DNA of 64,000 nucleotides, taken from the NCBI RefSeq assembly GCF_001040705.1, contig NZ_CVQP01000007.1, positions 490,422 through 554,421 on the forward strand, written 5' to 3'. This document shows positions 7,930 to 19,245 of the stretch, one piece after another. The position numbers and the translations under genes were made by a program. Position 1 is the stretch's first letter; each line of letters opens with the position of its first letter. This DNA is from Rhodococcus sp. RD6.2 (lineage in GTDB: Bacteria > Actinomycetota > Actinomycetes > Mycobacteriales > Mycobacteriaceae). A model generated the notes under the pieces. That model did not search any database and was not told the origin of the DNA. It saw only the letters and a program-made list of their open reading frames with translations.

Positions 7930-8556
7930 TCAGTCGGCTGCGGGCGGAGCGGTGATGCCGCGGGTGATGGCGGCCGCGGAGAAGGCGATGAGCTCGGACG
8001 GATCGAGTGGTGCCGCCCAATTGTTGACGATCGTGTCGGACACGCCCATGAGTCCGGAGAGGACGAAGCGGATGAGCGCGGGATCGTCGAAGAGCGTTCG
8101 CCCCTCCGCCTCCGCGGCCTCGAGAATTGCCCGGTGTAGTTCCTCGTTGTACTGCTCCGCAGTCACGCGCAGTTCGCGAACGGACTCGCGTTCGGACCGA
8201 GCGGCACCCTCGATGTCGCGCCAGGTTGCGGTCATCCGCCCCACGCGCGCCCACTGTCGCACCGAGTTCGGGATGGTCGCCGCGATCAATGCGGCGACGC
8301 CGCTGTCACGGGGCAGGGTGGCCACGAAGGCGGCGGATTCGATCTGGCTCTCGTTGAGCAGCGCGATGAAGATCTCCTGCTTGTCTGCGAAGTACTGGTA
8401 GATCAGGCCGGTGCTGGTTCCGGATCGCTGTGCGACCGATCGGATCGTGAGTGCGCCGTAGCCGCCTTCGTCCAGGAGGGCGGCCGCCGCGTCCAGGGTG
8501 CGGCGGCGCCGCGCGTCCGCATCGCCGTAGATGGACTTGCCGTTCGATTCGCTCAC
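7930..8556 (-). CDS. TetR/AcrR-family transcriptional regulator
   Basis: 208 residues: N-terminal TetR helix-turn-helix (RTLDAAAALLDEGGYGALTI, then RSVAQRSGTSTGLIYQYF) and a helical ligand-binding C-terminal domain. It is divergent from the sulfonation operon, and a 41-bp palindrome lies between them, so it most likely represses that operon and perhaps itself. Start: two GTG codons (8559 and 8556) are possible. On the minus strand a TACGGT -10 element ends six bases before 8556, which fits a leaderless transcript beginning at 8556. The ligand may be the substrate or product of the sulfotransferase pathway (inference). Confidence 0.88.
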   Translation of the reverse strand: MSESNGKSIYGDADARRRRTLDAAAALLDEGGYGALTIRSVAQRSGTSTGLIYQYFADKQEIFIALLNESQIESAAFVATLPRDSGVAALIAATIPNSVRQWARVGRMTATWRDIEGAARSERESVRELRVTAEQYNEELHRAILEAAEAEGRTLFDDPALIRFVLSGLMGVSDTIVNNWAAPLDPSELIAFSAAAITRGITAPPAAD

Positions 8557-8607
8557 CACGCCACCGTATCTGTGCGGCTCGGCGGCTCGGCGGCTCGCCT
8601 CGCCTCT

Positions 8608-8648
8608 GAATGAACAATGTTCAATCTAAGATTGAACATTGTTCATTC
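8608..8648. promoter_or_regulatory. Perfect 41-bp palindrome: double TetR-type operator
   Basis: Two 20-nt arms are exact reverse complements around a single central base at 8628. Each arm contains its own 13-bp inverted repeat: TGAACAATGTTCA at 8611-8623 and TGAACATTGTTCA at 8633-8645. The two box centres are 22 bp apart, about two helical turns, so two regulator dimers could bind the same face of the DNA. The right box contains the -35 element of the cysQ promoter. The adjacent TetR gene is the obvious binder, but this is inferred from position. Confidence 0.85.
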
Positions 8649-8660
8649 TGTTGCTACGGT
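8632..8660 (+). promoter_or_regulatory. Promoter of the sulfonation operon, leaderless
   Basis: TTGAAC (8632-8637), a 17-bp spacer and TACGGT (8655-8660) form a good SigA-type promoter. The cysQ GTG at 8668 begins eight bases after the -10, where transcription should start, so the mRNA is probably leaderless. The -35 is embedded in the right operator box, so a bound regulator would block RNA polymerase. Confidence 0.7.
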
Positions 8661-8667
8661 CACAATC

Positions 8668-9459
8668 GTGACCACAGACGCCGCGGCCTCCGCGCCGCAC
8701 CCACCGGCCGTTCACAATTCCGAAGATGCCCGTGCTGCAGCCGACATGGCCACCGCCGCAGGGGAACTGCTACTGGATTTCCGTGCGGACGCGCACCTCG
8801 CGCGTCTCGACCTGGGTGAGGTCCGCCGCATCGGCGACCGCATCTCCCACGAGTTCCTCGTCGCCGAGTTGGCGCGACGGTTTCCGGCCGACGCGGTGCT
8901 GTCGGAGGAAGGGGCGGACGATCCGTCGCGCCTGACCGCCGACCGGGTGTGGATCGTCGATCCACTCGACGGGACCAGGGAGTTCGGCGAGTTCGGCCGC
9001 ATCGACTGGGCCGTGCACGTCGCGCTCGTCGAGCGTGGTCGCCTGACGGCCGGAGCGGTGGCGATGCCGGCACTCGGCGTCACCTACTCGACGGCGGACG
9101 CACCGACCCCCGCCGGACCGGCGCCTGCCGCGCCCCGGGTCGTGGTGAGCCGGACCCGCAGGCCCGAGCCCGTCATGGCCATGGCCGCCGCCCTCGGGGC
9201 GGAACTGGTCGAGATGGGTTCCGCCGGTGCGAAGGCGATGGCCGTCGTCCGCGGTGAGGTCGAGGTCTACGCCCACACCGGCGGCCAGTACGAGTGGGAC
9301 TCGGCGGCCCCCGTCGCCGTGGCCCGCGCTGCCGGACTTCATGTTTCACGTATCGACGGGTCCGAACCCGTCTACAACCAGGAGAACCCCTGGCTGCCCG
9401 ACCTACTGATCTGCCGCCCGGAACTGGCCGGCACCGCACTGGAGGCGCTTGCGCGATGA
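8668..9459 (+). CDS. cysQ: 3'(2'),5'-bisphosphate nucleotidase / inositol monophosphatase family (CysQ)
   Basis: Mg-dependent, Li-sensitive phosphatase that removes the 3'-phosphate of PAP (the by-product of PAPS-dependent sulfotransfer) and can act on PAPS. The 263-residue product has the metal-binding glutamates (SEEGADD), the family core [11 protein letters not shown] with Asp98 and Asp101, and the C-terminal [14 protein letters not shown] motif. The longer reading frame starting inside the operator (8617) was rejected in favour of the GTG at 8668, which has promoter support. It is the first gene of the operon and ends in an ATGA overlap with cysD. Confidence 0.88.
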
Positions 9460-10376
9460 GCAGTCCCACAATCAGCAAGACCCTGACCCACCTCGAGCGA
9501 CTCGAAGCCGAGAGCATTCACATCATGAGGGAGGCCGTCGCGGGGAGCGAAAACCCCGTGATGCTCTACTCGGTGGGCAAGGACAGCGCAGTGATGCTGC
9601 ACCTGGCCCGCAAGGCGTTCTACCCGTCCCGGCTGCCGTTCCCGCTGCTGCACGTCGACACGACGTGGAAGTTCCGGGAGATGTACAAGCTCCGCGACGA
9701 GTCCGCTGCGGCAGGGGATTTCGATCTGCTGGTGTATCAGAACCCCGAGTGTGTGGAGAAGGGGATCAACCCGTTCACGCACGGTTCGTCGACGCACACC
9801 GACATGTGGAAGACCGAGGGCCTCAAGCAGGCCCTCGACCTGCACAGGTTCGACACCGCGTTCGGTGGCGCCCGCCGGGACGAGGAGAAGTCCCGCGCGA
9901 AGGAGCGCGTCTTCTCGGTCCGCTCGGCGGAGCACCGCTGGGACCCCAAGCGGCAGCGTCCCGAACTGTGGCACATGTACAACGTCCGGCGCTCGCCGGG
10001 GGAGACGCTGCGCGTCTTCCCGCTGTCGAACTGGACCGAGCTGGACGTGTGGGAGTACATCCGGCAGGAGAACATCCCGATCGTGCCGCTGTACTTCGCT
10101 GCGCAGCGGCCGGTGGTCGAGCGGGACGGCACCCTGATCATGGTCGACGACGACCGGATGCCGTTGCGGCCCGGCGAGATCTCCGAAATGCGGAGTGTCC
10201 GCTTCCGGACCCTCGGCTGCTACCCGCTCACGGGTGCGGTCGAGTCCACGGCCGCGACCCTGACCGAGGTCATCCAGGAAATGTTGCTCACCACCACGTC
10301 CGAGCGTCAGGGCCGCGTCATCGACCACGACAGCAGCGCCTCGATGGAGAAGAAGAAGCAGGAAGGGTACTTCTGA
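9456..10376 (+). CDS. cysD: Sulfate adenylyltransferase subunit 2 (CysD)
   Basis: Catalytic subunit of heterodimeric ATP sulfurylase, which makes adenosine 5'-phosphosulfate (APS) from ATP and sulfate. 306 residues, full length. The PP-loop [13 protein letters not shown], the segment [12 protein letters not shown] and the C-terminal [13 protein letters not shown] motif are all present. The start overlaps the cysQ stop (ATGA) and the stop overlaps the cysNC start (TGATG), so cysQ, cysD and cysNC are translationally coupled. Confidence 0.96.
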
Positions 10377-12277
10377 TGGCCCACTCGTCCAACCTCATCG
10401 CCGACGACATCGAGCAGTACCTCGCCCAGCACGCGACCAAGTCCATGCTGCGGTTCATCACCTGCGGCAGCGTCGACGACGGCAAGTCCACGCTGATCGG
10501 CCGATTGCTCTACGAGTCGAAGCTGGTCTTCGAGGACCAGCTGAGCGCGCTCGAGAGCGACTCGAAGAAGGTCGGCACCCAGGGCGAGGGCCTCGACTTC
10601 GCGCTGCTCGTGGACGGTCTCGCCGCCGAGCGGGAGCAGGGCATCACCATCGACGTCGCCTACCGCTACTTCACCACCGAGCGGCGCAAGTTCGTCGTCG
10701 CCGACACCCCGGGCCACGAGCAGTACACCCGCAACATGGTCACCGGTGCGTCGACCGCGGATCTCGCGGTGATCCTGATCGACGCCCGCAAGGGCGTGCT
10801 CACCCAGACCCGCCGGCATTCCTACCTGGTCTCGCTGCTCGGCATCCGGAACGTCGTGCTCGCGGTGAACAAGCTCGACCTCGTCGACTACTCACAGGAG
10901 GTCTTCGAGCAGATCGTCGGCGAGTACACGGCGTTCGCCGCGGAGATCGGGTTGGCGAGTGTCGTCCCGATCCCGATGTCCGCGTACATGGGTGACAACC
11001 TCACCGAGCGCAGCCCGAACACGCCCTGGTACCAGGGTCCGTCGCTGATCGAGCACCTCGAGACCGTTGACATCGACGACGACCTCCGCACCGGTCCGTT
11101 CCGGATGCCGGTGCAGTGGGTGAACCGCCCGGATCTCGACTTCCGGGGCTTCTCCGGGCAGATCGTCGGCGGATCGGTGCGCCCGGGCGACCGGATCCGG
11201 GTGCTGCCCAGCGGGAAGGAGTCCACCGCCCTGCGGATCGTCACGATGGACGGCGACCTCGACGAGGGCGTTGCGGGTCAGTCGGTCACGATCACCCTCG
11301 CCGACGAGATCGACATCAGCCGCGGTGACGTTCTCGCAGTCGCGGACGCCCTACCGGGGGTTGCCGACCAGTTCGAGGCGCAGCTGGTGTGGATGGGCGA
11401 GCACGACATGCTCCCCGAACGCCCGTACGTCTGCCAGATCGGGACGATGACGGTGCAGGCGCGGATCACCAAGCCCAAGTACAAGATCAATGTCAACACG
11501 CTCGAGCAGACGGCGACGAACACTCTCGCCCTCAACGAGATCGGCGTGTGCAACATCAGCTTCGATCGGCCGGTCCCGTTCGACGCCTACGTCGACAACC
11601 GCGACACCGGCGGGTTCATCCTGATCGACCGGCTGACCAACACCACCGTCGGTGCGGGCATGATCGCGCACTCGCTGCGCCGGTCGGACAACATCCACTG
11701 GCAGGCCGTGGACGTCAGCGCCGAGTCCCGGGCGGTCCTGAACGGTCACCGGCCGCAGGTGCTGTGGTTCACGGGTCTGTCCGGGTCCGGCAAGTCGACC
11801 ATCGCGAACGAGCTCGAGCGGCAACTGCACGCGAGCGGCTGCCACACCTATCTCCTCGACGGCGACAACGTCCGCCACGGTCTGAACCGAGACCTCGGCT
11901 TCACCGAGGCCGACCGGGTGGAGAACATCCGGCGGGTCACCGAGGTCGCCCGGCTGATGGCCGATGCCGGCCTGATCGTGCTGGCGTCGTTCATCTCTCC
12001 GTTCCGGGCCGAGCGTGACGCGGCCCGCGAGCTGATCGGCGAGGACCGGTTCTGCGAGGTGTTCGTCGACACTCCGATCGACGTCGCCGAGTCGCGGGAT
12101 CCGAAGGGGCTCTACAAGAAGGCGCGGCGTGGCGACCTAACGAACTTCACCGGCATCGACTCCCCGTACGAGTCGCCGGAGAACCCCGAGCTGCGGGTCG
12201 ACACGACCGTGACGACTCCCGCGGAGGCCGCCGTTCAGATTGTCGAGAAGCTCCGCAGCCGCGGCGTCATCGCCTGA
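10376..12277 (+). CDS. cysNC: Bifunctional sulfate adenylyltransferase subunit 1 / APS kinase (CysN-CysC fusion)
   Basis: GTPase subunit of ATP sulfurylase fused to APS kinase, giving PAPS as the end product. In the N-terminal CysN part (about 1-455) are Walker [10 protein letters not shown] (31-39), DTPGHEQY and NKLDLVD, all EF-Tu-like GTPase motifs. The C-terminal kinase (about 458-633) has its own Walker A GLSGSGKS (467-474), [17 protein letters not shown] and the substrate segment [10 protein letters not shown]. This fusion is standard in mycobacteria and relatives. No APS/PAPS reductase gene accompanies it here, so its PAPS is available to the sulfotransferase encoded downstream. Confidence 0.95.
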
Positions 12278-12317
12278 CCCGACCCGTTCCACCAACTACA
12301 CCCGAGGAGCGTTCCCT

Positions 12318-12677
12318 GTGCCCACCCGAGACGAAATCTGTTCGGTGATCGATTCGTACGTCAAGTATCTCGGTGATCACGACGTCGATCAGCTGATGTC
12401 GTTGTTTGCGGCGGACGCGGTCCAGCACGAGCCGCTGGGCGTGCAAACCTTCCGTGGCATCGACGAGATCCGGGCCTTCGGCACCGGAAACGCGAAGGTG
12501 GCGTTCACGGTGAGCCGGTACTCGCCGATCACCGTCACCGGCCGGTTCGCGGCGATGCAGCTCCGCGTGCAGCGCGAGGGCACGCCCGACTTCCTGTCCA
12601 CCGATCTGTTCGAGTTCGGCGAGGACGGCAAGATCGTCTCGCTCAGCGTCGTCCTGGACCCCAAGGCTCAGGTGTGA
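12318..12677 (+). CDS. NTF2-like (SnoaL / ketosteroid-isomerase-like) protein
   Basis: 119 residues with the layout of the NTF2-like cone fold: an N-terminal helix (EICSVIDSYVKYLGDHDVDQLMSLF), ADAVQHEPLG, then RGIDEIRAFG and paired beta strands. The pattern resembles ketosteroid isomerase and polyketide cyclases, but catalytic identity cannot be claimed. The GTG at 12318 was chosen because GAGGAG lies nine bases upstream and homology-like sequence starts here. The stop overlaps the SDR start (GTGA). It may isomerise or bind the substrate that is later sulfonated (inference). Confidence 0.75.
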   Translation: MPTRDEICSVIDSYVKYLGDHDVDQLMSLFAADAVQHEPLGVQTFRGIDEIRAFGTGNAKVAFTVSRYSPITVTGRFAAMQLRVQREGTPDFLSTDLFEFGEDGKIVSLSVVLDPKAQV

Positions 12678-13486
12678 GCGCGGGCCTGCGAGCAGCGCCG
12701 GTGATGCCGGCGCTGCTCGACGGCAAGGTCGTGATCGTCTCCGGTGTCGGTGAGGGGTTGGGACGCTCGGTCGCCGTGCGCAGCGCCCTCGCCGGTGCCC
12801 GGGTCGTCCTGGCCGCGCGGACGGAGTCCCGGCTGACGGAGGTCGCCAACGAGATCCGGGAACTCGGCGGTATCGCGGTGTCCGTGCCGACGGACCTCAC
12901 CGACGACGCGTCGGTGACGAATCTCGCCGATGCGGCGCTGGCCGAGTTCGGAGCGGTCGACACGGTGGTGCACAACGCATTCGTGCAGCCGCCACACGAG
13001 CGGCTTCTCGACGCCGAGTTCGAATCGGTCCGGCAGGGCCTGGACATCAACCTGCTGGCCTCGCTCAACCTGACCCGCAAACTCGCTCCCGCCCTGGAGA
13101 AGTCCGAGGGGTCGGTCGTGGTGATCAACTCGATGGTGCTGCGCAACCAGTTGCCGAACTTCGGTGCCTACCGGGTGATGAAGGCCGGACTGCTCGCCCT
13201 CGCCCGCAGTCTCTCGGTGGAGCTGGGCCCGATGGGTGTCCGAGTGAACTCCGTTGCTCCCGGCTACATCTGGGCGCACCGGGTCAAGGCCATGGTCCAG
13301 AAGCAGGCAGAGCAGCGCGGTGTCGACCCCGCCGAGGTCTACGCCGAGATCGCGGCAGGCACTGACCTGCGCCGGTTGCCGGAACCCGACGACATCGCGA
13401 ACGCGGTGATCTTCCTGGCCTCCGACCTCGCCCGCGCGATCACCGGGCAGTGCCTGGACGTCAACTGCGGCCACGCCCACCACTGA
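12674..13486 (+). CDS. SDR-family NAD(P)-dependent oxidoreductase
   Basis: 270 residues, classical short-chain dehydrogenase/reductase. The cofactor loop is SGVGEGLG instead of the usual TGxxxGIG; the NxAG-type strand is VVHNAF; the catalytic Tyr166 and Lys170 are in YRVMK, with a serine in VINSMV; the C-terminal region reads FLASDLARAITGQCLDVNCG. Arg rather than Asp at the end of the second strand (LAARTE) hints at NADP use. It lies between the NTF2-like and sulfotransferase genes in one operon. In M. tuberculosis an SDR, a sulfotransferase-like protein and a DUF1214-like protein are, to my memory, neighbours at Rv3529c-Rv3531c, which would parallel this order. Confidence 0.88.
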   Translation: MSAGLRAAPVMPALLDGKVVIVSGVGEGLGRSVAVRSALAGARVVLAARTESRLTEVANEIRELGGIAVSVPTDLTDDASVTNLADAALAEFGAVDTVVHNAFVQPPHERLLDAEFESVRQGLDINLLASLNLTRKLAPALEKSEGSVVVINSMVLRNQLPNFGAYRVMKAGLLALARSLSVELGPMGVRVNSVAPGYIWAHRVKAMVQKQAEQRGVDPAEVYAEIAAGTDLRRLPEPDDIANAVIFLASDLARAITGQCLDVNCGHAHH

Positions 13487-13509
13487 ACCACCCTCACAAG
13501 GACATACGA

Positions 13510-14682
13510 ATGACGCAGGATTGCGACGGCATCGGCTCCATCGAGGACCTGCACGCGCAGGCGCGCAGGGAGACCGGTCGCGACGATTTCGGCAGCGACG
13601 AGTACCTGGAAGGCCTGACGGTGCTGCTCGACTCGTTCGCGCGGGAAGCCGACCTCACCCCGAACGGAAAGGTGATCGCGCGCAAGATGATCCTGTCCGC
13701 GCTCAGAGGCCGGCTGATCAGCGAGGCGGCGTTCGCGCGGCACCCCGAGCATGTCGACGTCGAGATCGAGCGGCCGATCTTCATGTGCGGACTGACCCGT
13801 ACGGGCACCACCGCGCTGCATCGCCTCCTCAGCGCCGACCCGGCCAACCAGGGTGTCGAGATGTGGCTGGCCGAGGCGCCGCAGCCCCGTCCCGCCCGTG
13901 AGACGTGGTCCGAGAACCCCGATTTCCTCCGCGTCGACGCCTTCTACCGGGCGCGTCAGGCGAACGAGGCGGACCTGATGAAGGTGCACTTCATGGGTGC
14001 CGAGGAGGTCGAGGAGTGTTGGCGACTGCTCCAGCAGACGATGCTCTCGACCGCGTTCGACACCGTGGCGTACGTGCCGTCGTACACGGCATGGCTGGCG
14101 AAGCAGGACTGGACCGACACCTATGCCCGGTACAAGAAGAACCTGCAGCTGATCGGTATGAACGATCGTGATCGCCGCTGGGTTCTGAAGAGCCCGAGCC
14201 ACGTCTTCGCGATCGACGACATCGTGAAGGTCTTCCCGGATGCGCTGTTCGTTCGCACCTTCCGTGACCCGCACACCTCGATGGCGTCGACCTTCAGCCT
14301 CGCCGAGCAGGGCGGGCACGACATGTCGCAGGCCTTCGACCGCAAGACCATCGGACGGACCCAGCTGGATCTGTGGGCGCGCGGGAACGCGAACTTCCAG
14401 GAGGCCCGGGCCCGCCACAACCCCGAGCAGTTCATCGACATCGACTACCGGGACTTCGTGGCCGACCCGATCGGGACGGCCGAGAAGGTCTACACCCAGT
14501 TCTCCCTGCCGCTCTCCGACGAGGCGCGTCGCGCGATCGCCGATGCCCACGAGGCCAGCCTCGCCGACCACCGCCGCCCGTCACACACGTACTCGCTCGA
14601 AGACTTCGGAATCACCGCCGCCGAGGTCGACGCCACGTTCGCCACCGCCCGACCCCTCTCACCGGATAGGAATTCACGATGA
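13510..14682 (+). CDS. PAPS-dependent sulfotransferase (Sulfotransfer_3 type)
   Basis: Transfers sulfonate from PAPS to an alcohol or amine acceptor. In the 390-residue product the 5'-phosphosulfate loop is FMCGLTRTGTTALHRLL (about 91-107), and the 3'-phosphate-binding segment is VRTFRDPHTSMAS (about 248-260), with the expected Arg and Ser. No signal peptide is seen, so it is cytosolic, where PAPS is made. The ATG at 13510 follows an ACAAGGA ribosome-binding site; a longer upstream start was rejected because it runs into the SDR gene. It follows the PAPS synthesis genes and ends in an ATGA overlap with the DUF1214 gene. The acceptor is unknown; a sterol, lipid or envelope alcohol is possible. 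Confidence 0.9.
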   Translation: MTQDCDGIGSIEDLHAQARRETGRDDFGSDEYLEGLTVLLDSFAREADLTPNGKVIARKMILSALRGRLISEAAFARHPEHVDVEIERPIFMCGLTRTGTTALHRLLSADPANQGVEMWLAEAPQPRPARETWSENPDFLRVDAFYRARQANEADLMKVHFMGAEEVEECWRLLQQTMLSTAFDTVAYVPSYTAWLAKQDWTDTYARYKKNLQLIGMNDRDRRWVLKSPSHVFAIDDIVKVFPDALFVRTFRDPHTSMASTFSLAEQGGHDMSQAFDRKTIGRTQLDLWARGNANFQEARARHNPEQFIDIDYRDFVADPIGTAEKVYTQFSLPLSDEARRAIADAHEASLADHRRPSHTYSLEDFGITAAEVDATFATARPLSPDRNSR

Positions 14683-15740
14683 ACGCCACCTGGGAAAAGT
14701 TCTGCACCGACCTGCTCGAGGTCGGGAACATCCTGTCGGACCCGATCGTGCCGCAGGATCCCCTGACGCAGGCCGAGGGCGTGCGCTACCTGTCGCGCCT
14801 GCTGCGTTACGCGACGATCAACTGCGTCGAGTACACCGACCCGCGGTGGCCGCAGTTCACGTCCGCGCCGAACCCCAACATGATGACCAAGCTCGGCGCC
14901 GACAATCCGGACAACATCTACATGCGCGCCAACATCTCTGGGAAGTACACGTACCGGATCACCGGAACCCGGGGCACGATCCCGCTGATCACCTTCGGTT
15001 CCCGTGTCAACCGCTACCACATCGACGGCACCATGCTGCAGACCGGTGACCTGCACATCCACGACCTCGAGGTCGACGAGAACGGACGCTTCGAGTTCAT
15101 CGCGAGCGTGGACGAGCCCGCCGAGGGGGCGTGGCTGCCGCTCGCACCGGACAGCAACCTCATCTCCGTGCGGCAGACCTACGCGGACCGGCGCGCCGAG
15201 GTACCCGGCGAGCTGTCCATCGAATGCCTCGACCCCGACGGCGAATTCGTTCCGCTGATCGAGGACGAGCTGGGCTGGCGACTGGACCGGGCGATCGGCA
15301 TGCTGAAGGGCTCGGCCGCCACGTTCCTCGAGTGGTCGCGCGACTTCATGCCGCAGCCCAACGAGATCTTCGACCGCGGGCAGGAGCAGTTCCAGAAGGC
15401 CGGTGGCGATCCGACGATCTTCTACTTCCACGGGTACTGGAAGCTCGCCGAGGACGAGACTTGGGTCATCGAGACCGAGGTCCCGAACTGCGAGTACTAC
15501 AACTTCGTGCTGCAGAACTTCTGGGTGGAGTCCCTCGACTACCACCGGACGAACATCTACATCAACAACCACACCGCGAAGCTGAACGACGACGGGACGC
15601 TGACCATCGTGGTGTCGGCGAAGGACCCCGGTTTCGGCAACTGGATCAACACCGACGGCCACGCCGAGGGCACCTGGGCGATGCGCTGGATCAAGGCCGA
15701 CTCGCACCCGATCCCGACTTCCAAGGTCGTCACACTGTGA
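14679..15740 (+). CDS. DUF1214-domain protein, last gene of the sulfonation operon
   Basis: 353 residues, no signal peptide or membrane helix. The C-terminal third has the DUF1214 pattern (WVIETEVPNCEYYNFVLQNF, NNHTAKLNDDGTLTIVVS and a closing GTWAMRWIKAD). The N-terminal part (RYLSRLLRYATINCVEYTDP) is helical. The function of DUF1214 proteins is not established. Its start overlaps the sulfotransferase stop, so the two are made together and may interact or act in sequence. It could bind or position the acceptor. Confidence 0.8.
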   Translation: MNATWEKFCTDLLEVGNILSDPIVPQDPLTQAEGVRYLSRLLRYATINCVEYTDPRWPQFTSAPNPNMMTKLGADNPDNIYMRANISGKYTYRITGTRGTIPLITFGSRVNRYHIDGTMLQTGDLHIHDLEVDENGRFEFIASVDEPAEGAWLPLAPDSNLISVRQTYADRRAEVPGELSIECLDPDGEFVPLIEDELGWRLDRAIGMLKGSAATFLEWSRDFMPQPNEIFDRGQEQFQKAGGDPTIFYFHGYWKLAEDETWVIETEVPNCEYYNFVLQNFWVESLDYHRTNIYINNHTAKLNDDGTLTIVVSAKDPGFGNWINTDGHAEGTWAMRWIKADSHPIPTSKVVTL

Positions 15741-15903: not shown

Positions 15904-17031
15904 ATGCGCAGGGTGGGACGTCGGACGTCATGGGCGGCGGCATCGCTCGCCGCGGTCGCGGTGTTCGCCGGGCCGGGCCACGCCGCGGCGGAACCGGCGT
16001 CGAGCGGCAGTGCGAGCTCGGGCAGTTCGGATTTCGGCAGCATGGATTTCGGCAGCATGGATGCCGGCAGTGTCACGTCAGGATCGACGGTGCCCGAAGT
16101 CTGGCAGGACGATCCGGGGCCGCTGCCCCCGCTGCGTGACGACATCGTCGTGCCGGAGATCGTCGGTGAGACCGTCACCTCCCCGCAGGTCAAGCGTTTT
16201 CTGGTGGCGTCGCCGTCACTGCGCCGGGTGGTGGGCGTCGACGTGCTGCTCCCCGCCGACACGAGCGCGCCGCGGCCGACGCTGTACATGCTCGAAGGGG
16301 TCGGCGGCGGTGAGGACCAGTCCGCCTGGATGTACATGACCCACGCCCCGAAGTTCTTCGCCGACAAGAACGTCAACGTGGTGATGACCAACGGCGGCGT
16401 CGCCAGTCTCTACACCGACTGGGACAGCCCCGACAAGAACCTCGGCGTACACAAATGGGAAACCTTCATCACGGAGGAACTGCCTCCGCTCATCGACGCA
16501 CGGCTGAAGACCAACGGCGTCAACGCGATCGCGGGCAACTCGATGGGTGCGCAGGGGGCGATGATGCTCGCCCACCGGCGCCCCGACCTGTACCGGGGGA
16601 TCGCGGTGTTCAGCGGCTGCTACTCGACGACCGACGACGCGGGCCGGCTGAGCACACAGTTCACGGTTTCCTCGCGGGGAGGCGACATCCGGAACGTGTG
16701 GGGTTCGCCGGGCGGAGCGGGCTGGGAAGCACACGACTCCGTCCGTCACGCGGAAGCGTTGCGCGGCAAGCCGATCTACATGTCGGTGGCCACCGGCCTC
16801 GCCGGCCGGTACGAGGGGCCGGGTACCGATCTCGAACGGATCGTGGTCGGCGGCGCCATCGAGGCCGTCGCGAACCGCTGCACCAAGCGCCTCGACCAGA
16901 AACTGGACGATCTCGGCATTCCCGCAACCGTCGACTACGAGGCGCGTGGAGTGCACGCCTGGGCGTACTGGAAGGACCAGCTGCCCAAGGCGTGGCCGAC
17001 GCTGGAGCGGGCGTTGGGACTCACGAGCTGA
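15904..17031 (+). CDS. Secreted mycolyltransferase-like (antigen 85 family) esterase
   Basis: Alpha/beta hydrolase likely to act on trehalose mycolates or envelope esters. An N-terminal Sec signal (RRVGRRTSWAAASLAAVAVF, cleavage near AAAEP) is followed by a Ser/Gly/Asp linker with a tandem repeat, then a catalytic domain with LYMLEGVGG, the nucleophile elbow GNSMGA (Ser213) and a C-terminal VHAWAYW containing the catalytic His. 375 residues, close to the family length. I chose the ATG at 15904 because the signal peptide starts there and GGGAGG is upstream. True mycolyl transfer is probable but not proven by sequence. Confidence 0.85.
   Translation: MRRVGRRTSWAAASLAAVAVFAGPGHAAAEPASSGSASSGSSDFGSMDFGSMDAGSVTSGSTVPEVWQDDPGPLPPLRDDIVVPEIVGETVTSPQVKRFLVASPSLRRVVGVDVLLPADTSAPRPTLYMLEGVGGGEDQSAWMYMTHAPKFFADKNVNVVMTNGGVASLYTDWDSPDKNLGVHKWETFITEELPPLIDARLKTNGVNAIAGNSMGAQGAMMLAHRRPDLYRGIAVFSGCYSTTDDAGRLSTQFTVSSRGGDIRNVWGSPGGAGWEAHDSVRHAEALRGKPIYMSVATGLAGRYEGPGTDLERIVVGGAIEAVANRCTKRLDQKLDDLGIPATVDYEARGVHAWAYWKDQLPKAWPTLERALGLTS
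16030..16074 (+). repeat. 15-bp tandem repeat in the mycolyltransferase linker
   Basis: GATTTCGGCAGCATG occurs at 16030-16044 and again, identical, at 16045-16059, followed by a diverged third unit (16060-16074). It encodes DFGSM DFGSM DAGSV in the flexible segment after the signal peptide. Copy number may vary between strains by slippage. Confidence 0.75.
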
Positions 17032-17660: not shown

Positions 17661-17891
17661 TGGTGGCCTCGTCGCCCATCATGTAGATGTCGTGCGGCGC
17701 GTCGGCAGCGGACTGGGTGAGTACCCCCGCCCGTTCGAGCGCTTTGATGCGATCGCTCTGCTTCGAGCCATCGAAGCGGATGCCGCTGCGCCGGCACCCT
17801 AGATTGCCAGCAGCGGTTCGATTTCCACCAGGGCGCCGAAGTTGACCGAGCCACGGGCAGCGCTGATCAATTCCGGGTCGATCACAGCCAT
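17661..17891 (-). pseudogene. Broken reading frame of unknown origin next to the RloB remnant
   Basis: On the minus strand an ATG at 17891 with a strong GGGGGGAA ribosome-binding site opens a frame (MAVIDPELISAARG) that stops after 30 codons at 17799. The reading then continues only in a shifted frame (SDRIKALERAGVLTQSAADA, PHDIYMMGDEATTAT) towards the RloB remnant. It looks like the 5' part of a decayed gene, but I do not recognise the protein. A genuine 30-residue product is possible. Confidence 0.35.
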
Positions 17892-18012
17892 GGTTCCCCC
17901 CGTCGAGAGTCGCGATCCTAATCGCCGAGGGCAACCAGAGCGGGTGGTGGCCGACGGAAACCTGTCGGTGGTCGCTGTCACACTCGTCGGCAGTCACGCG
18001 AGGCGGGGTGAG

Positions 18013-19245
18013 ATGAAGAAGCGATTCAGCTACCGGGCATATCCAGACGCGGACCAGCGGGCAATGCTCGCCAAGACCTTCGGCTGTGCCCGCGTCGTCT
18101 ACAACGACTTCGTGGCCTACTGCCGTGACTCCTATGAGAAGCGTGGCGTCATCCCCGATCTCAACGAGGTCAAGTCGATCGTCACTGCGCAGGCGAAACG
18201 CACCCCGGAACGCCAATGGCTGGCCGAGGTCAGTTCGGTGCCGCTACAGGAGGCTGCTCGAGATGCACAGTCGGGATATCGAGCCTTCTTCATGTCGATC
18301 GCGGGCACGCGGAGGGGGCCTCGAGTCAATCCGCCTCGGATGAAAAGAAAATCGGGACGCCAGGTAGCGACGTTCACGACGAGAGCGTTCACGGTTCGGG
18401 CGGACGGCTGCTCAAGATGGGGGTTTGTCCGTCTTGCCAAGATCGGTGAAGTGAAGTTCAGGCTCTCGCGTCCGCTCCCCTCCTGCCCGTCCACGGTGAA
18501 AGTCATCTGCGAGCCTTCGGGGGAGTACCGAGTGAGCTTCGTCGTCGAGGTGGAGGCCGCCTGCCCAGCGGCCGTCGAGTCGGTGGCGGGCGTCGACCTG
18601 GGACTTGCGCACCTTGCGATCGTCGCAGGTAGTTCTGGCGAACGCTACCGCGTGCCGAACCAGCGGAATCTACGCTCGGTCGAACACAAACTCGCCAAGG
18701 CGCAGCGTCGCCTGTCCAGAAAGGAGAAAGGAGGACGGAACCGGGACAAGGCGCGCATCGGCGTGGCGCGCTTGCATGCAAGAGTCGCGCGTTCTCGTAA
18801 AGACCAGTTGCACAACGTTGCCCGCCGGTTGGTTGACGAAAACCAAGTCATCGCCGTCGAGAACTTGGACGTTGTGGCGCTCGGCAAAACACGATTCGCG
18901 AAATCGATCGCTGATGCGGGATGGGGGATCCTGCTGGGGCTGTTGCGATCCAAGGCTCGGGAGTCGGGTCGCGAGGTCGTCGTCATCGATCGGTGGTTCC
19001 CGAGTACCCAGATGTGTTCACAGTGTGGACGCGTGGACGGGCCGAAGCCGCTCCGCATTCGTATCTGGAAATGCGAATGCGGAGCGGTTCTCGACCGTGA
19101 CTACAACGCAGCAGTCAACATCATGCTCGCCGCAGGGCTTGCGGAGAGCCTAAACGCCCACGGAGGGGTCGTCAGACGAGTGCTTGCGCTCGCGGACCCC
19201 AGCGAATTGGGAACCCACCTGGCCGATGCACGCGCATCGGCGTAG
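18013..19245 (+). mobile_element. tnpB: Orphan TnpB (IS200/IS605 or IS607-type RNA-guided nuclease)
   Basis: 410 residues. TnpB proteins are RNA-guided nucleases encoded by insertion sequences and are ancestors of Cas12. The RuvC triad is intact: Asp195 in GVDLGLAHL, Glu283 in VIAVENLDV and Asp363 in LDRDYNAAVNIM. The zinc finger CSQCG...CECG lies between the last two. The N-terminus (KKRFSYRAYPDADQRAMLAK, CARVVYNDFV) is the usual TnpB domain. I chose the ATG at 18013, after GGGGTGAG; longer frames to 17842 lack family sequence. No TnpA transposase is nearby, so it cannot move by itself. Several hairpins at the 3' end fit a guide-RNA scaffold. Codon choice looks less GC-biased than in neighbouring genes. 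Confidence 0.92.
19048..19087. repeat. 14-bp perfect inverted repeat inside the tnpB zinc-finger codons
   Basis: CCGCTCCGCATTCG (19048-19061) and CGAATGCGGAGCGG (19074-19087) are exact reverse complements with a 12-nt loop. They lie about 160 nt before the tnpB stop, within the codons of the zinc finger. A perfect stem this long in coding sequence is unlikely to be neutral and could be part of a guide-RNA scaffold or an mRNA control element. Confidence 0.6.

Follow-up and report, generated by a model that had tools for sequence, protein, structure and literature searches.

A self-contained operon predicted to encode sulfonation was identified in a 64,000-nucleotide stretch of the genome of Rhodococcus sp. 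RD6.2 (hereafter the window: positions 490422–554421 of contig C7, NZ_CVQP01000007.1, in a genome of 5.57 Mb and 13 contigs that is 99.99% complete). The operon consists of cysQ, cysD and a fused cysN-cysC gene (cysNC), followed by genes for a ketosteroid isomerase (KSI)-like protein, a short-chain dehydrogenase/reductase (SDR), a sulfotransferase and a DUF1214 protein. We lean, by a modest degree of belief, toward the interpretation that these genes encode a locally regulated, self-contained sulfonation pathway whose acceptor would be a hydroxylated steroid or steroid-like polycycle. As read from the sequence, CysD and CysNC would produce 3′-phosphoadenosine 5′-phosphosulfate (PAPS) from sulfate, the sulfotransferase, a member of PF13469, could use PAPS as donor, and CysQ would clear the by-product 3′-phosphoadenosine 5′-phosphate (PAP). 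On the acceptor side, the SDR may interconvert a hydroxyl group and a ketone, the KSI-like protein may move a double bond to a conjugated position, the sulfotransferase would transfer the sulfonate group to a hydroxyl, and the DUF1214 protein may bind or further convert the sulfonated product; the pathway would be induced by its substrate and may serve to solubilise, trap or detoxify intermediates. A first-pass annotation of this DNA had proposed that a single locus encodes the supply of the donor, its use and the removal of the by-product; that architecture is borne out by the predicted functions of CysD/CysNC, the sulfotransferase and CysQ, and the proposed substrate can now be sharpened toward a steroid.

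Genes were assigned by Pfam and NCBIfam profile matches, with bit scores judged against the cutoff of each model, and all seven co-directional genes of the first-pass annotation were recovered where it had placed them. The cysQ-like PAP phosphatase gene (8668–9459, + strand, as are all seven) matches Inositol_P at 116.5 bits and the CysQ model TIGR01331 at 109.5 bits, the latter under its cutoff of 228.8. The small subunit of sulfate adenylyltransferase is encoded by cysD (9456–10376; TIGR02039, 494.6 bits, cutoff 396.6), and its large subunit together with adenosine 5′-phosphosulfate (APS) kinase by cysNC (10376–12277; NF004035, 1063.5 bits, cutoff 715; APS_kinase, 233.6 bits). The next gene (12318–12677), previously described as NTF2-like, is indeed present, and its product is now refined to a SnoaL_2/KSI homologue. 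It precedes the SDR gene (12674–13486; PRK07890 subfamily, 358.1 bits, cutoff 258), the Sulfotransfer_3 gene (13510–14682; PF13469, 188.6 bits) and the DUF1214 gene (14679–15740; PF06742, 30.4 bits, cutoff 25). ATP sulfurylase and APS kinase are accordingly encoded beside a PAPS-type sulfotransferase (CysD, CysNC and Sulfotransfer_3). This sulfotransferase matches the chain 2zq5, which we take to be a mycobacterial sulfotransferase, at 7.5e-122, and its residues R97, T98, G99, R252 and S260, presumably donor-site residues, are invariant in 21 aligned rows. Three junctions have a spacing of −4 bp (cysQ/cysD, KSI-like/SDR and sulfotransferase/DUF1214) and cysD/cysNC has one of −1 bp, so that four of the six overlap, in line with the earlier statement that most do; the remaining spacings are +40 bp (cysNC/KSI-like) and +23 bp (SDR/sulfotransferase). 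Position 8608, formerly given as the start of the locus, is the first base of a palindrome and not the start of a gene. An in-frame ATG of cysQ at 8617 falls inside this palindrome, so the GTG at 8668 is more probably the start codon.

The nature of the acceptor is suggested by the KSI-like protein. Steroid Delta-isomerases account for 58 of the best 60 of its 78 matches in the PDB, mostly variants of two KSI proteins, and the best match, also a steroid isomerase, has a value of 3.2e-8. The catalytic KSI residues Tyr14, Asp38 and Asp99 align with Y14, E38 and D96 of the Rhodococcus protein, all of which are invariant in 14 of 14 orthologues. The nearest solved chain to the SDR is 3ucx, followed by 7alpha-hydroxysteroid dehydrogenases, a similarity that is weak by itself.

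A second pointer comes from contig C1 of this genome, which carries a paralogous cluster (type B; the window operon and its orthologous loci are termed type A). Like the window operon, the C1 cluster contains genes for DUF1214, SDR, sulfotransferase, CysD, CysNC and CysQ; unlike it, the cluster has two divergent gene groups with an IclR-like gene between them, a site of the type bound by KstR and no KSI-like gene. The DUF1214, SDR and sulfotransferase genes run in one direction. Reading the other way are the intervening gene, identified as IclR-like by eye, then cysD, cysNC, cysQ and a gene for an F420-dependent oxidoreductase, which fits TIGR03617, unlike the one seen near type-A loci. Identities between the window and C1 proteins are 54% (sulfotransferase), 49% (CysD), 48% (SDR) and 25% (DUF1214). 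The KstR palindrome TAGAACACGTTCTA has 11 matches with at most one mismatch in the Rhodococcus sp. RD6.2 genome, two of them exact, and its reversed control has none. One exact match lies 66 bases upstream of a gene matching the kstR model (336.9 bits, cutoff 280), on a contig that also has matches to the KstD, HsaA, HsaC and HsaD models above their cutoffs. The other, at C1:933936, precedes the C1 DUF1214 gene by 82 bases, within the region that this gene has in common with the divergent IclR-like/cysD group; with this palindrome in its promoter, the C1 cluster is a candidate member of the KstR regulon.

A sample of 23 type-B loci, 20 kb each, was also examined. With the queries used, the SDR was undetected in L076, L078 and L083 and DUF1214 in L079. 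In a scan that permitted three centre variants, a KstR-type site with at most two mismatches was found within the 300 bases upstream of the DUF1214 gene in 17 of the 22 loci with a detected DUF1214 (eight exact, five with one mismatch and four with two), compared with 1 of 4400 base-shuffled regions. The first-pass annotation had pointed to an SDR/sulfotransferase/DUF1214 trio in M. tuberculosis (Rv3529c-Rv3531c) without adjoining PAPS genes; an arrangement of this kind is seen in three of the 23 paralogous loci, since four (L076, L086, L087 and L088) have no PAPS genes within 20 kb and three of these four carry the full trio, but both cysD and cysNC are present within 20 kb in the other 19, with the copies of L085 lying ~6 kb from the trio. 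In M. tuberculosis, a KstR motif with positive binding in vitro is reported upstream of Rv3531c by Kendall et al. (2007; PMC1995591). Of the acceptors suggested earlier (a sulfated lipid, sterol or envelope metabolite), a sterol would be favoured over an envelope molecule because the operon encodes a KSI-like protein and KstR sites mark the paralogue.

Conservation of the operon was surveyed in 301 genomes of the family, taken evenly out of a larger group. A related sulfotransferase occurs in 230 of them (genomes of the genus labelled g29, such as G033, G071 and G111, have up to six each, the ceiling of what the search scored in a genome), and the clade of the window protein, defined by at least 75% identity, in 26, including Rhodococcus sp. 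RD6.2 itself; the next best match is at 62%. The gene-order search that had been proposed as a check was carried out on this clade. The order TetR-cysQ-cysD-cysNC-KSI-like-SDR-sulfotransferase-DUF1214 is repeated in all 25 relatives and thus in 26 of 26 genomes; in one of them (L072, whose genome is 79% complete), cysNC is broken into two parts and only a short SDR reading was obtained. Identities to the window proteins across the relatives are 84–97% for DUF1214, 86–96% for CysD and 61–88% for TetR, and the closest named relative of the DUF1214 protein, in a search that may omit the window's own genome, is from Rhodococcus triatomae BKS 15-14 (97%). A scan of named genomes returned 23 loci, 20 of which have the full set, and the remaining three lie outside the family: Nocardioides jensenii is without cysQ, cysD and cysNC and keeps the acceptor genes, Actinocorallia populi is without cysQ, and Nocardioides sp. 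Root140 is without cysQ, the KSI-like gene and the SDR gene and keeps sulfotransferase and DUF1214. Streptomyces sp. SID10853 has the full gene set. Carriers of the operon also include R. globerulus and R. spelaei. Independent variation of the downstream genes, which would have spoken against a single pathway, is therefore absent from the 26 family genomes and seen in parts outside them, in N. jensenii and Root140. The type-A loci total 30: the window, its 25 relatives and the four outside the family. Every one of them has TetR, sulfotransferase and DUF1214; cysD, cysNC, KSI-like and SDR are each found in 29, and cysQ in 27.

A TetR-family regulator gene (7930–8559, − strand; TetR_N, 52.2 bits) is divergent from the operon, and between the two lies the perfect 41-bp palindrome at 8608–8648 (20+1+20, 100% complementary), which contains two GAACAnTGTTC sites and is a probable tandem TetR operator. 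All 30 type-A loci have the TetR gene next to the operon and at least one operator site; in the stretches scanned, the motif is confined to the called gap that separates TetR from the start of the operon or to a few bases around it. Exact matches in the Rhodococcus sp. RD6.2 genome number only two, both at the window locus, with one more at two mismatches and none for the reversed control. Acting at its paired operator, the TetR protein probably keeps the operon repressed as long as no inducer is present, and the earlier suggestion of an inducible pathway would fit a local TetR gene whose operator sites are exact nowhere else in the genome. A scan for promoters found 0 compared with 0.8 expected, and a scan for terminators found 1 compared with 2.3 expected, with none past DUF1214.

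A local TetR with its own operator would also suit a phase-II-like detoxification of an exogenous aromatic or terpenoid compound, by which the operon would be induced via TetR. This is an unlikely alternative, although the patchy occurrence (26 of 301 family genomes) and the spread to Nocardioides, Actinocorallia and Streptomyces, where DUF1214 is 82–84% identical and HsaC at most 57%, speak for it; the KSI-like enzyme and the KstR sites at the paralogue point more specifically to steroids, and no transporter is conserved in the operon within five called open reading frames (ORFs) per side of the 30 loci. An F420-dependent LLM-class oxidoreductase family does occur within five called ORFs of 15 of the 30 loci (14 downstream and one upstream, for example downstream of DUF1214 in L068 and L105), though not at the window; one member checked fits TIGR03619. 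Two further genes lie downstream in the window. A putative secreted esterase (15904–17031, + strand; PF00756, 114 bits) begins 163 bases past DUF1214 and is not conserved beside type-A loci within the same limits, and an ORF at 17842–19245 (+ strand), ~2 kb past the operon, resembles by eye a TnpB/OrfB-type transposon protein.

Since cysD and cysN are classical assimilation genes, the locus might instead be a second sulfate-assimilation or sulfur-limitation locus with unrelated passenger genes downstream. A CysN2C-CysD2-Stf0 cluster in Rhodococcus qingshengii IGTS8, which appears with dibenzothiophene as sulfur source (PMC8557817), would lend this some weight. Profile searches with PF01507 and PF01077, however, detected neither an APS/PAPS reductase nor a sulfite reductase in the window, in agreement with the first-pass annotation. 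Across the genome, PF01507 has four matches, namely three cysD genes and one cysH on contig C6, and PF01077 has four on contigs C5 and C6. A sulfite-reductase-family gene (cysI), cysH, cysD and cysN are consecutive on C6, and the C6 CysH contains CCALRKVAPL, SIGCAPCTS and KTECGLH, which are given as APS-reductase signatures in PMC8557817. The other cysDNC/cysH locus whose existence had been posed as a question is thus present, with its own cysD and cysN and without APS kinase, and because two other cysD genes exist, the window cysDNC is not the only copy. The acceptor genes also keep the same order in 26 of 26 genomes, and N. jensenii retains them without cysDNC. An assimilatory role was rejected in view of the separate C6 locus and the two further cysD genes, and we regard it as highly improbable. 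APS kinase is encoded at two sites only, the window and the C1 cluster, each beside a sulfotransferase, which leaves the C6 CysN without one. Searches with PF00685 and with the window sulfotransferase each returned two genes, at these same two loci; the Stf0-family profile PF09037 had no match in the genome, but its control was silent too, so that absence of this family is not established. As far as these searches show, PAPS would be made solely beside sulfotransferases.

The donor genes appear to have a history of their own. The cysD-cysNC DNA (9456–12277) is 67–75% identical to alphaproteobacterial plasmid genes among the matches listed, and in a tree of 35 CysD rows the type-A proteins group with four alphaproteobacterial plasmid CysD proteins, in a cluster (100/100) that excludes both type B and the assimilatory copy. 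On these two grounds, a lateral origin of cysD-cysNC is likely; outside rows in the tree are few and two of its branches are long, which leaves the donor lineage unsettled. As judged by sequence, the operon is a mosaic, with SDR, sulfotransferase and DUF1214 paralogous to those of the widespread type-B cluster and CysD grouping with alphaproteobacterial ones. None of 410 matching plasmid records reaches at least 80% query coverage, and hence none carries the whole operon. The window DUF1214 protein matches 28 plasmid records, 24 of them from Sphingobium, Novosphingobium, Croceicoccus or Sphingomonas, and 19 records are at 36–45% identity. Alpha-tomatine degradation is described for strains of the TomTYG and TomMM series in a paper whose accessible portion contains neither the word DUF1214 nor the word sulfotransferase (PMC10653915). 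On a plasmid of Novosphingobium sp. KACC 22771 (NZ_CP117882), genes for CysD, CysNC, CysQ, sulfotransferase and DUF1214 are consecutive (76, 71, 53, 33 and 45% identical to the window proteins, respectively), there is no match to the TetR or KSI-like query, and an SDR (nearest PRK07890, 248.5 bits, cutoff 258) and a SnoaL_4 protein belong to a neighbouring upstream set. The same set includes a hydrolase and a hydratase (both under model cutoffs), an acetaldehyde dehydrogenase, an aldolase and a PRK07121 flavoprotein that is 33% identical to one beside an aldolase gene on the steroid contig of Rhodococcus sp. RD6.2. The occurrence of a comparable module next to genes of ring-cleavage type is a further hint at a steroid-like acceptor.

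Several observations weigh against a steroid acceptor or against a single coherent pathway. Both the SDR and the SnoaL family are broad, the KSI-like protein has Glu where the second catalytic residue of KSI is Asp, and type B has no KSI-like gene. No KstR-type palindrome within two mismatches was found in the window, nor any such site in the promoter regions of the 25 type-A relatives; four internal two-mismatch matches occur in L061, L071 and L072. Among type-B loci, the site is missing in five of 22 (L020, L024, L085, L087 and L088), the sites that exist stem from related genomes and are hence non-independent, and in a looser earlier scan a match within 4 of 19 mismatches was reached by 8 of 345 stretches drawn at random from these loci, some of which may contain real sites. 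HsaC matches occur in 30 of 30 type-A genomes, at 46–57% in the four outside the family, but paralogues within Rhodococcus sp. RD6.2 itself score 40–49%, and this co-occurrence therefore says little. The Novosphingobium flavoprotein is 26% identical to the KstD of Rhodococcus sp. RD6.2 and is not KstD, and its gene set would also fit another ring-cleavage pathway. The two incomplete Nocardioides loci belong here as well. An alternative is that the operon is dedicated to sulfonation but acts on a lipid, quinone or envelope metabolite made by the cell itself, with the KSI-like protein as a SnoaL-type enzyme acting on another substrate: the breadth of the SnoaL_2 and SDR families and the retention of sulfotransferase and DUF1214 without KSI-like and SDR genes in Root140 suit this alternative, and known mycobacterial sulfotransferases have envelope molecules as acceptors. 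It is possible but doubtful, given that KSI is the best solved match, with the three catalytic positions kept or conservatively changed, and that KstR-type sites mark the paralogue.

The DUF1214 gene lies beside the sulfotransferase gene in 30 of 30 type-A loci, and its protein has 42 invariant columns over 24 type-A and type-B rows. A structure model (mean pLDDT 80.1, pTM 0.69) gave convincing matches in a fold search solely to uncharacterised proteins, namely 6ans of Burkholderia cenocepacia (41% identical) and VPA0735 and VPA0106 of Vibrio; the other matches listed have query TM-scores of at most 0.20. A second DUF1214 copy, 61% identical, lies behind the operon in L091 (from 12173) and L067 (from 12590), probably the same Speluncibacter contig, with a stop codon within the stretch tried. 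A locus of Sphingomonas paeninsulae (L115) was considered as the same trio and dropped, its third gene having an hhalign probability of 0.1% to DUF1214 and no Pfam match. By analogy with the anaerobic 25-hydroxysteroid kinase, for which activation ahead of elimination, an ATP-driven dehydration, is described (PMC8449060), sulfonation might itself be a catabolic activation, in which a steroid hydroxyl is made a leaving group, DUF1214 eliminates it, and the KSI-like protein and the F420-dependent oxidoreductase settle the double bond; we consider this quite unlikely.

For the sulfonation of a steroid-like acceptor, the nearest functional precedent would be the BT_0411-BT_0416 cluster of Bacteroides thetaiotaomicron, which combines PAPS synthesis with a cholesterol sulfotransferase and in which cholesterol raises the expression of Bt_0412 and Bt_0416 (PMC9417993); the window operon would work alike. 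Both place PAPS synthesis genes beside a PAPS-dependent sulfotransferase, whereas the accessible portion of that source proposes a sulfate importer for the Bacteroides cluster and does not mention partners of the KSI-like, SDR or DUF1214 kind. The IGTS8 cluster likewise joins fused cysNC, cysD and a sulfotransferase in Rhodococcus and differs in gene order and in a sulfotransferase called Stf0 in its source; being in print, it means that clusters of PAPS genes plus a sulfotransferase are not new in the genus. In M. tuberculosis, Rv3529c-Rv3531c presumably have no adjoining PAPS genes. They are listed among cholesterol-catabolism genes as a CHP, a possible oxidoreductase and a hypothetical protein, and KstR control is reported for them, unlike the window operon (PMC6429209 and PMC1995591). 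Within the portions of the open-licence literature searched, no match was found to the KSI-like/SDR/DUF1214 combination, the tandem TetR operator or the KstR-marked paralogue, and no sulfonation branch is assigned to the KstR regulon or to actinobacterial steroid catabolism.

The KstR regulon and actinobacterial steroid catabolism are intensively studied fields, and a steroid-sulfonating role for the window operon, if true, would add to them an unrecognised metabolic branch in which the making and use of PAPS are separately regulated. It would give a function to a conserved hypothetical trio and a first biochemical setting to DUF1214, and it predicts steroid sulfates, or sulfonation-dependent intermediates, that should be findable by mass spectrometry. 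Were the elimination mechanism to hold, a PAPS-powered steroid dehydroxylation, comparable with the dehydration that follows 25-hydroxysteroid kinase, would be common to actinobacteria and sphingomonads.

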